Of a stretch of 12,379 nt of DNA, positions 3,067-5,140 are shown one piece after another; positions within the stretch are counted from its first letter, which is position 1, and the number at the start of each line of letters is the position of its first letter. Under the pieces are notes generated by a model. The model was not told the origin of the DNA. It saw nothing but the letters and a program-made list of their open reading frames with translations, and did no database searches. Both the position numbers and the translations under genes were made by a program. Source of the stretch: Candidatus Altimarinota bacterium (lineage in GTDB: Bacteria; Patescibacteriota; Gracilibacteria; JAHISY01); contig JAGLJE010000025.1 in assembly GCA_023142645.1 (NCBI GenBank), positions 1 through 12,379 of the forward strand, written 5' to 3'.

Positions 3067-3102
3067 AAAATTAAGGTGATCGTAACAAAAAAAGCGCAAG
3101 GA

Positions 3103-3137
3103 AAAGAGTCGTTATTGACTGAAAGCAACGACTCTTT
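3103..3137 (-). terminator. Terminator-like hairpin after the small membrane protein gene
   Basis: An 11-bp perfect inverted repeat (3103-3113 with 3127-3137, arms AAAGAGTCGTT and AACGACTCTTT) with a 13-base loop lies 14 bases past the stop codon of the gene at 3152-3544. Read on the minus strand, it is followed after about 10 bases by seven T. The distance between stem and T-run is longer than in a classical intrinsic terminator, so the role is probable, not certain. Confidence 0.5.
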
Positions 3138-3151
3138 ATTCCCCTCTCGGA

Positions 3152-3544
3152 TTACTGTTGTTCCGGTTTTAGTGGACTCTGAGAGTGCCGGGGTCCAATA
3201 CCCCAACCCCACGAAAACGTGGTTTCGGTCTTGGTTTTTTTGGGAGTAGGCAGAGCGATGAACTGTTCTAATTCCGAAGGGGTTAATTGCTGTGATTCAC
3301 CCCTTGCTTCGTCATAGATGAAGCAAATTGCGCTTGCGCGATTAATTTTCGCGAGCGTTTTTGTAGCTCCCTTTTTCGTCCGGAACAATATGTTCGTCCC
3401 AGATTTATTATCCCAACAGAGTCCGATTAACTCGGCTGAATGGGAGGAGTTTATGGAATAAATTCCCCATCCGATGATACACAGGACTATTATCAGTCCT
3501 GCTACGATACTAATGATTACTATGCCTTTTTTCTTTTTTGCCAT
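3152..3544 (-). CDS. Small single-pass membrane protein, function unknown
   Basis: A 130-residue protein with a Lys-rich start (MAKKKKG), one membrane helix (about 7-29), and an exposed domain of about 100 residues ending in a Pro/Lys/Ser-rich tail. No known family is recognised. The positive N-terminus suggests the start stays in the cytoplasm and the rest is outside. Start choice: an ATG 15 bases upstream (3559) is in frame, but GGAGGA (3552-3557) stands 7 bases before the ATG at 3544 and overlaps the upstream candidate, so 3544 is the real start. The gene follows a consensus promoter (3777-3805) and a structured leader of about 200 nt, and is followed by a terminator-like hairpin, so it appears to be a single-gene transcription unit under possible RNA-level control. 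Confidence 0.6.
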   Translation of the reverse strand: MAKKKKGIVIISIVAGLIIVLCIIGWGIYSINSSHSAELIGLCWDNKSGTNILFRTKKGATKTLAKINRASAICFIYDEARGESQQLTPSELEQFIALPTPKKTKTETTFSWGWGIGPRHSQSPLKPEQQ

Positions 3545-3551
3545 GACATCT

Positions 3552-3557
3552 TCCTCC
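3552..3557 (-). promoter_or_regulatory. Ribosome binding site of the small membrane protein gene
   Basis: GGAGGA on the minus strand lies 7 bases before the ATG at 3544. It is the clearest Shine-Dalgarno in the window; most other genes here have none, so translation of this gene may be strong or specifically controlled. It lies just downstream of the folded leader and is not inside any of the stems seen there. Confidence 0.65.
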
Positions 3558-3565
3558 ATTTTTTT

Positions 3566-3770
3566 CGTTAATTTATTTTTTCAATCCCGAGAATCTAGAA
3601 GCCAAAAGTTTAGTTGCTCGGCTCTCGGAATTGATGATTTTGTTCAGTAGAGAGGGGATCTGCTTTCGGAATTGTGGCTTTCTGTGAAGATTCCACAATT
3701 CACTTGAAGTCAGATGACTCCCTACTGGATGGGATTTCAAAGGACGACGATTTCCATGTTGCTTTTAACG
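3566..3770 (-). ncRNA. Candidate structured RNA or long structured 5' leader
   Basis: Noncoding stretch of about 200 nt between a consensus promoter and a small gene. The minus-strand transcript folds as follows. Hairpin A (3727-3645): a 10-bp stem (3727-3718 with 3654-3645), a small internal loop, a 5-bp stem (3715-3711 with 3662-3658), a larger internal loop, and a perfect 9-bp apical stem (3701-3693 with 3677-3669) with a 15-nt loop. Hairpin B (3633-3582): an 11-bp stem (3633-3623 with 3592-3582) with an inner GCC/GGC. The extreme ends can pair CGUUAA (3770-3765) with UUAACG (3571-3566), closing the whole. The single imperfect pairs in stems A and B are G-U on the minus strand but mismatches on the plus strand, which points to minus-strand RNA. 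It matches no RNA family I recognise (not SRP, tmRNA or RNase P by visible motifs). It could be a stand-alone RNA, a riboswitch-like leader, or both. Confidence 0.55.
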
Positions 3771-3776
3771 GTGTGT

Positions 3777-3805
3777 AATTTAACAAGTTTATTAAATCTT
3801 GTCAA
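3777..3805 (-). promoter_or_regulatory. Consensus promoter for the structured leader/RNA
   Basis: On the minus strand, a perfect -35 TTGACA (3805-3800), a 17-base spacer and a -10 TAAATT (3782-3777). Transcription would start near 3770, exactly where the closing helix of the structured RNA begins. An inverted repeat ACAAG/CTTGT (3783-3787 and 3798-3802) fills the spacer and could be an operator. A small palindrome TCTTG-T-CAAGA (3797-3807) overlaps the -35. Confidence 0.65.
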
Positions 3806-3868: not shown

Positions 3869-5140
3869 ATGCCGTCTCGTAAAATTAAAAAATCCCGTAA
3901 AAACAGAATTGCGATTCTGCATTATTCGTACCCTCCGGTGGTCGGGGGAGTCGAGTTTGTGATGGAGGGTCACGCTAATCTTCTCGCGGAAATGGGTTTT
4001 CCTGTAAAAATAATCACCGCTACTGGCGGAGAGGAAAATAGTAATCCGAACATTGAAATTGCGAAAATTAGCGAGATTGATAGCAGTAATCCTGTTATCA
4101 AAAAATGTTTCCAAAAAGACGGAAGCATCAAAAAAACGGAGTTCGAATTAGCCAAAAAACTTTTGAAAAAGAAGCTAGCGAAATCACTTTCGGGAGTTTC
4201 GAAATGTTTCGTTCATAATATTATGACGATGCATTTCAATACCGTGCTGACGGCAGCGATATTTGATCTGATGGACGAGCTGAAAAATATTAAATTTATT
4301 GTGTGGTGTCACGATGCTAGTCTCATTAATCTCGATTATCATTTTCGTCTAAAAAATGAATATCCTTTAAATCTACTCGGTAAAATTAATCGAAAAGCCA
4401 AATATGTGACAATTTCAAAAGAAAGGCAAAAGCAAATAGCTGAGTTGTTCGGAGTCAAGAAAAATTTAATCAAAAGTGTTCCCAATGGTATTGATATCAA
4501 AAAACTTTTGAACATCGATTCTGAAATTTGGAAGTTCGCTTCCGACTTTGGATTTTTCGAAAAAGATATTATCGCGCTTTTCCCCACGCGTATTTTGGAG
4601 AGAAAAAATATTGAAAAAGGAATTGATATTATTTGCGAGCTCAAAAATCTCGGGCTGAAAGTTTCATATGTGATTACCGGAATGCCCGATCCTCACAACA
4701 AAGCCACGGCCAAGTATTACGATTTTTTACGAAAATATATAAAAAAGAAAAAAGTAGAAAAGGATGTTATTTTCGTGGCGGACACTAAACAATCAGATGG
4801 ATCGAAATTCAAAATCGACTTAAATAAGTTGAGGAGTCTTTACAATCTTTGCGATATTCTCCTGATGCCTTCGAAACAGGAAGGGTTTGGTTTGCCTTTG
4901 CTCGAGGCCGGGATTTTTCGAATGCCGATTTTTTGCAGCAATGTGAGTCCGCTGCCGGATATTTTCGCAGAGAATGCGAATTATTTCGAGCTGAAAGAAA
5001 GTCCCGCCAAAATCGCCAAACATATTGCGAGTGTTTGCGATAATGATTCAGCTTTTAAGAATTTCAAAAAAGTAATGCTGGATTATTCTTGGCCGTCGAT
5101 TTACAAAAAACACATTCACAAACTCATTTCCCAAAAATAA
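3869..5140 (+). CDS. GT4-family glycosyltransferase (GT-B fold)
   Basis: A 423-residue retaining glycosyltransferase. The N-terminal Rossmann domain opens with HYSYPPVVGGVE (18-29), the glycine loop of GT4 enzymes. The C-terminal donor domain has PNGID (205-209), an Arg/Lys pair in RILERKN (241-247), and the E-x7-E motif E348...E356 in EGFGLPLLEAG, which holds the nucleotide sugar. Length is typical of the family. It lies between the GpgS-like fusion and a GH13_18 phosphorylase, which raises the possibility that it sugar-extends glucosylglycerate, as the GT4-type mannosylglucosylglycerate synthases do. Donor and acceptor cannot be read from the sequence, and a role in lipid or surface glycan synthesis is equally possible. 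No Shine-Dalgarno is seen; a weak -10-like TAAAAT lies at 3844-3849. It converges with the next gene, with only 12 bases between stop codons. Confidence 0.75.
   Translation: MPSRKIKKSRKNRIAILHYSYPPVVGGVEFVMEGHANLLAEMGFPVKIITATGGEENSNPNIEIAKISEIDSSNPVIKKCFQKDGSIKKTEFELAKKLLKKKLAKSLSGVSKCFVHNIMTMHFNTVLTAAIFDLMDELKNIKFIVWCHDASLINLDYHFRLKNEYPLNLLGKINRKAKYVTISKERQKQIAELFGVKKNLIKSVPNGIDIKKLLNIDSEIWKFASDFGFFEKDIIALFPTRILERKNIEKGIDIICELKNLGLKVSYVITGMPDPHNKATAKYYDFLRKYIKKKKVEKDVIFVADTKQSDGSKFKIDLNKLRSLYNLCDILLMPSKQEGFGLPLLEAGIFRMPIFCSNVSPLPDIFAENANYFELKESPAKIAKHIASVCDNDSAFKNFKKVMLDYSWPSIYKKHIHKLISQK

Follow-up and report, generated by a model that had tools for sequence, protein, structure and literature searches.

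What kind of RNA, if any, is made from the roughly 200 nt of noncoding sequence that follow a TTGACA promoter on the minus strand of this contig, and what could it do for the gene downstream? The whole stretch of DNA analysed here (the window, 12,379 nt) is the entire contig C84 of a genome that is 72 % complete. An earlier note, made from the letters alone, had read the locus as an unrecognised structured RNA with its own promoter, and suggested a new riboregulator, a riboswitch-like leader of the small membrane protein gene or a stand-alone RNA. Judged from sequence comparison, the RNA forms the 5′ leader of one short mRNA and belongs to a conserved family of leaders in which a boxA-like element precedes a hairpin. 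The features of the locus are:

3869-5140, plus strand: glycosyltransferase gene, divergent neighbour of the leader
3777-3805, minus strand: promoter TTGACA-17-TAAATT with a TG upstream of the −10 element; probable start site near 3770
3770-3545, minus strand: structured RNA, predicted 5′ leader of the 130-aa membrane-protein gene
3733-3746, minus strand: boxA-like block CGUCCUUUGAAAUC, putative NusB-S10 binding site
3645-3727, minus strand: hairpin 1, with basal stem 3727-3718/3654-3645 (from the fold and the pair counts)
3717-3716/3657-3655, minus strand: asymmetric internal loop of hairpin 1
3715-3711/3662-3658, minus strand: inner stem of hairpin 1, with the upper stem above it
3581-3634, minus strand: hairpin 2, conserved in position and variable in sequence
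3551-3557, minus strand: Shine-Dalgarno (SD) sequence GGAGGAA, read in the sequence, preceding the ATG at 3544
3152-3544, minus strand: gene for the 130-aa protein, which has a hydrophobic N-terminal segment and no Pfam family
3102-3137, minus strand: terminator-like hairpin, seen by eye, followed a short way downstream by a T run (3093-3087)
1683-2990, same strand as the 130-aa gene: GT2-HAD gene, the next gene after it

The minus strand from 3545 to 3775 folds with a minimum free energy (MFE) of −63.9 kcal/mol (z −4.65), and none of 200 shuffled sequences was equally stable. Hairpin 1, 83 nt long in the window, reaches a z of −5.37 when folded alone. The two long hairpins of the earlier note thus stand, and both of its G-U pairs (3721 with 3651 and 3629 with 3586) are present in the MFE structure. 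Regarding the strand, folding was less clear: the plus strand of the same stretch is slightly more stable (−67 kcal/mol), yet its z is only −2.95. The argument that these G-U pairs point to the minus strand is weakened by this. The strand is settled by comparison across the family copies described below: in 34 rows of an alignment that was itself fitted to a model of the sense strand, helices 1 and 2 contain 48 G-U against 6 A-C wobble cells, which strongly favours the minus strand as the RNA. No family of Rfam release 15 exceeded its gathering threshold; the best match on the RNA had an E-value of 2.4 and the best in the window (E 1.6) was located elsewhere, in agreement with the description of the RNA as unrecognised.

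The promoter consists of TTGACA (3805-3800), a 17-nt spacer and TAAATT (3782-3777), and matches the consensus at 10 of 12 positions. It is present as first described, but by itself it is not significant, because a scan of 1.3 kb for sites with at least 9 of 12 matches found 2 and shuffled sequences yield 2.8. We consider it credible because promoters recur in relatives: 19 of the 34 curated copies have an upstream promoter score of at least 9 (on a scale of 12 plus 0.5 for TG), and the mean score is 8.4 versus 6.8 in shuffles.

Nucleotide BLAST against 99 genomes returned the window itself and one chance match of 23 bases. The 271-bp stretch has no second copy in its own genome, phage DNA gave three 23-base matches and plasmids none. 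A covariance model of the single window sequence and its fold (R1) was scanned against 353 genomes of the class and matched G004, a member of the window's genus (E 7.7e-10), as well as G302, which belongs to a different family (E 0.015). In each of them a strong hairpin occupies the place of hairpin 1 (z −6.6 and −8.2, respectively), and a second hairpin, a TTGACA promoter and, farther downstream, an SD with an open reading frame (ORF) are present too. A strict pattern derived from the three basal stems matched in 5 of the 353 genomes and its reversed control in none, in all rows; a closely related pattern gave four matches in a collection of 84,980 species, with no genomes beyond these five, and viral contigs contained no match to the stem pattern.

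A covariance model of the three sequences (R2), which includes the boxA columns and whose E-values are rough, matched 46 of the 353 genomes at E ≤ 10. At E ≤ 0.015 there were 35 matches, counting the three seeds, spread over 30 genomes, and two matches were then rejected. Rejected by their context were the matches in G230 (L049) and G167 (L058), both with E < 0.01. Among the weaker matches (E > 0.1) we kept G004:C2:142747 as a curated copy and left the others out, and G288 (L044) was counted as a true copy on the strength of the promoter, boxA and hairpin read there. When 379 genomes were drawn from the whole phylum, a mixed set that includes the class itself, R2 matched six of them at E ≤ 0.1, all known members of the class. 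In the collections searched, the boxA-hairpin leader family is so far found only in one CPR class, with named records from Ca. Peregrinibacteria. Some contigs have several copies (three in G296:C55, L062 and L076; two in G283:C9, L061), which suggests duplication of the leader unit. Among the matches listed from the literature that could be searched, none describes this leader family, judging from titles and abstract openings, and no relevant passage was found in PMC11665869.

Base pairs were counted in an alignment of 34 rows fitted to R2. A version with 38 rows, which also contained the antisense match of L031, L063:2527, L065 and L068, agrees with it. In one row, G001 (L045), boxA lies upstream of the matched stretch and the first columns are misaligned. 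Standard pairs fill 89.8 % of the cells compared with 70.6 % in shuffles, 29 of the 31 base pairs have changed on both sides with the pairing kept, cells changed on both sides number 179 versus 55 in shuffles, and none of 500 shuffles reaches any of the five pair measures; these counts, like those of the wobbles, lean towards structure because the alignments were fitted to the model. Less dependent on the model are the slide and shuffle controls, where sliding the partners leaves 37-50 % paired, and the folds of single copies, where 33 of the 34 curated copies have z < −2 when folded alone (median −4.5). Some sequence of hairpin 1 is kept as well: one A-U pair is invariant (34 of 34 rows), and most rows have AUCUG/CAGAU beside the internal loop. 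The compensatory changes across the 34 copies, which the earlier note had named as a check on its stems, are there, and they support its structured minus-strand RNA with a promoter of its own, which proves to be conserved. We are almost certain that the RNA family exists.

Directly 5′ of hairpin 1 lies a block that resembles boxA, the NusB/S10 site of rRNA leaders, and it was compared with such leaders. The sequence TCYTTGAAATC is matched at no fewer than 8 of 11 positions in 31 of the 34 rows, a conservation that is partly by construction because R2 holds the boxA columns. A 16S rRNA gene was found in four of six genomes of the family (G001, G002, G004 and G005), whereas none was found in the incomplete genome to which the window belongs. 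In all four, a close counterpart of the block was seen by eye after promoter-like sequence in front of 16S: GCTCCTTGATTTCTCGG in G001 and G004, GTCCTTTGATTTCTCGG in G002 and GCTTCCTTGAAATCCCGG in G005; the automatic boxA pattern had picked only G005. The resemblance is between CGTCCTTTGAAATC / TGCTCCTTGAAATC in the leader and GCTCCTTGATTTC, GTCCTTTGATTTC and GCTTCCTTGAAATC in the rRNA of the relatives. NusB (TIGR01951, at the NCBIfam cut-off) was identified in five of the six genomes, with Pfam in agreement in the two tested, and not in the window's own incomplete genome. The two kinds of leader also differ, as three of the four rRNA boxes read TTGATTTC where the mRNA block reads TTGAAATC, and in our family the block stands before mRNAs, with a covarying hairpin immediately after it. 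Downstream of boxA the rRNA leaders are rich in A and T, and by eye no comparable hairpin was seen directly downstream in the four genomes, so hairpin 1 may have another job. Between boxA and 16S, the rRNA leaders (L107, L108, L109 and L110) have a common block like AAGTTAGTATTCAAAATGTAGCGGG, closely so in three of the four.

In the six genomes TCYTTGAAATC occurs 42 times, compared with 6 for the reversed control. Thirty of the 42 loci were read, and in 11 of them a hairpin (z ≤ −3) follows directly. Ten of these 11 have a promoter score of at least 9 and eight a ribosome site with an ORF, which in seven of the eight is shorter than 190 aa. A twelfth locus (L097) has a promoter, ribosome site and ORF with a weak fold, and 15 of the remaining 18 lie inside open frames of more than 200 codons. 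Several boxA leaders (L093, L095, L101, L077, L102 and L079) have other hairpin sequences in a similar layout of basal stem, asymmetric internal loop and inner stem. The hairpins of L093 and L095 are alike, and by eye L093, L095 and L101 seem to share a UCU/GCCG internal loop. Since some hairpins differ from hairpin 1, there are several leader types, one more of them in the window's genome (L093).

The recurrent order of the elements is promoter, boxA, hairpin 1, in many cases hairpin 2, SD and ORF. With starts chosen with SDs in view, 30 of the 34 curated loci, the window among them, could be given an ORF on the same strand that has a ribosome site, the exceptions being G237, G288, G289 and G296c. 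Of the options first proposed, a leader of the gene for the small membrane protein therefore fits best and a stand-alone RNA is unlikely. Sixteen of the 30 leaders have at least 40 nt in which a second hairpin could be examined, and 15 of these contain one (z ≤ −3); the other 14 lack room for it. By eye, the hairpin 2 sequences show little similarity across leaders. The distance from boxA to the start codon is 202 nt in the window and ranges from 87 to 362 nt over the 30 leaders.

GGAGG or AGGAG precedes the start in 24 of the 30 leader genes, a number inflated by the choice of starts with preference for SDs, compared with 13 of 58 comparison ORFs of at least 200 aa when any plausible start is allowed and 3 of 58 when only the first ATG counts, so that the contrast is overstated, and the comparison set was not purged of leader genes and may include some. 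Across the window and the loci of family f1, such a strong SD was seen at any plausible start in 5 of 59 ORFs of at least 200 aa, and looks rare. A strongly hydrophobic N-terminus was found in 19 of 21 leader proteins outside family f5 and in 17 of 46 comparison ORFs, again from the unpurged set. It is present in none of the nine proteins of family f5 (L036, L048, L050, L052, L053, L054, L055, L057 and L060), where a compact leader lies directly before the gene and the products of approximately 110-150 aa form, by eye, one soluble family (LTWGGMPHSF-type). Pfam named none of nine leader proteins above its cut-off, and gave nothing for the two f5 proteins tested. In G004 and G003 the leader gene is located between similar neighbours, while BLASTP aligns nothing between the two leader proteins; the leader may thus outlast the protein it carries.

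The boxA-like element was missed in the earlier note, and its presence changes the likely mechanism. The best-supported choice, which we favour while rating it just short of probable, is a boxA-dependent loading of Nus factors that keeps transcription going over the untranslated leader. NusB-S10 would bind boxA as the RNA emerges, NusA and NusG would join with hairpin 1 as a second recognition element, and the elongation complex would become resistant to termination across the long untranslated leader. The message could thereby reach the strong SD and feed SD-led translation. Such a mode of action would be like that of rRNA leaders and phage nut sites, on single genes. The wide spread of boxA-to-start distances favours action on the polymerase over direct occlusion of the SD. 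As a raw count, 4 of the 30 leaders have a terminator-like site downstream of hairpin 1 and before the start codon, and the window has none. The clearest case is G284, where a terminator-like hairpin and a T8 run stand between leader and gene (L038:1730-1747). Antitermination within the leader is thus possible in these cases and is not the general layout. A convergent gene clearly follows the leader unit in 7 of the 15 loci examined, which leaves little for long-range antitermination, so long operons are not an obvious purpose; in the window and L123 the following gene has the same orientation, and the other loci are ambiguous.

The lambda nut site is a boxA followed by a short boxB hairpin that is read by the N protein, and the HK022 put RNA is a two-stem RNA that itself makes polymerase resistant to terminators. 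Our leaders resemble the former in having a boxA and then a hairpin near the 5′ end, and the latter in the presence of two stems. However, hairpin 1 has 83 nt and an internal loop, unlike the short boxB, and in this the leader departs from a nut site as so defined.

Nus loading has to be weighed against control of translation, in which NusB-S10 on boxA, or pairing of boxA with the SD, would set the access of ribosomes, with hairpins 1 and 2 bringing the ends together. According to PMC5725501, boxA lies 6 nt from the SD in E. coli suhB and represses translation. The suhB leader and the other mRNA boxA sites in that source share with our family the position of boxA within the 5′ UTR, whereas here hairpins intervene between boxA and a start codon 87-362 nt away, and in none of the 30 leaders is boxA a few nucleotides from the SD. 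The MFE structure of the window does pair boxA with the SD (3746-3739 with 3550-3557, P 0.64), this pairing reaches P ≥ 0.4 in 6 of the 30 leaders, and when whole leaders are folded the 5′ end also comes to lie at the SD region, through different pairings, in G004, where the boxA region pairs with the SD, and in G302, where the first bases pair with the spacer between SD and start. The outer pairing depends on the length folded. The closing helix proposed in the earlier note forms when 3560-3770 is folded, but it is absent from the longer fold, which has the boxA:SD helix, and no single version is common to the window, G004 and G302. In 18 of the 30 leaders the probability of boxA:SD pairing is 0.03 or less, and the mean is 0.16 (with boxA at a fixed offset); together with the variable distance, this speaks against a single SD switch common to the family, and we consider translational control unlikely. 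We also doubt that the leader acts mainly as a stabiliser or processing site, with hairpins that protect the 5′ end or serve as substrate for a double-strand RNase, so that expression is stable, and a boxA that only helps transcription. The retention of hairpin 2 in position with little similarity in sequence and the frequent strong SD are in line with such a role, but the kept sequence of hairpin 1 (the invariant A-U pair and AUCUG/CAGAU) goes beyond the need of a generic stabiliser.

The same conserved sequence, situated around an internal loop within a covarying stem, could be taken as the pocket of a riboswitch in which hairpin 1 binds a small molecule. We find this quite improbable, as the downstream proteins are diverse, mostly lack a Pfam name and do not belong to one pathway, while the leaders share no helix that sequesters the SD and only four have terminator-like sites. 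A regulatory RNA that stands alone and merely adjoins the gene would account for a compact, highly structured transcript with its own promoter; given the assigned ORFs and ribosome sites on the same strand, and the fact that no minus-strand intrinsic terminator was listed in the window's leader, it is very improbable. An element acting as DNA, either inverted repeats of a mobile element or palindromes bound by a protein, is hardly credible. Its inverted repeats are long, the plus strand folds as well and G296 and G283 have multiple copies, but the asymmetry of G-U over A-C wobbles, the single copy of the 271-bp stretch in its own genome and the orientation consistently towards the assigned ORF all speak for an RNA.

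If boxA-dependent Nus loading is correct, boxA control, so far a matter of rRNA and a few mRNAs, would reach a class of mRNA leaders that recurs. More speculatively, and in our opinion with a rather low likelihood, the family could form a dedicated expression system for envelope or exported proteins that combines mRNAs with boxA and hairpin, a Nus-modified polymerase and initiation at the rare strong SDs, and in which the leader persists as the protein changes. Hairpin 1 would in that case be a new cellular, non-phage element of the nut/put type. Independently of the mechanism, CPR bacteria gain an RNA family that covariation supports, and because the leaders seem to mark genes of small exported proteins without Pfam names, they could help to locate surface proteins.

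Around the leader, the 130-aa protein has one homologue besides itself (80 % identity), and a protein search found no relative among genome contigs or viral contigs. A 33 % match in G004 was rejected as it lies antisense within a large ORF. The terminator-like hairpin after its gene is absent from the listing of the terminator pattern scan. The GT2-HAD protein is a fusion of a family 2 glycosyltransferase and a HAD phosphatase; a synteny check gave weak, partial matches alone in genomes of the window's family, so the gene was possibly acquired. A six-codon ORF (MEIVVL, 3757-3737, minus strand) begins near the predicted transcript start and stops inside boxA. Elsewhere in the window, at 53-685 and 705-1592, we observed two tandem type IV secretion system pilin proteins (PF18895).
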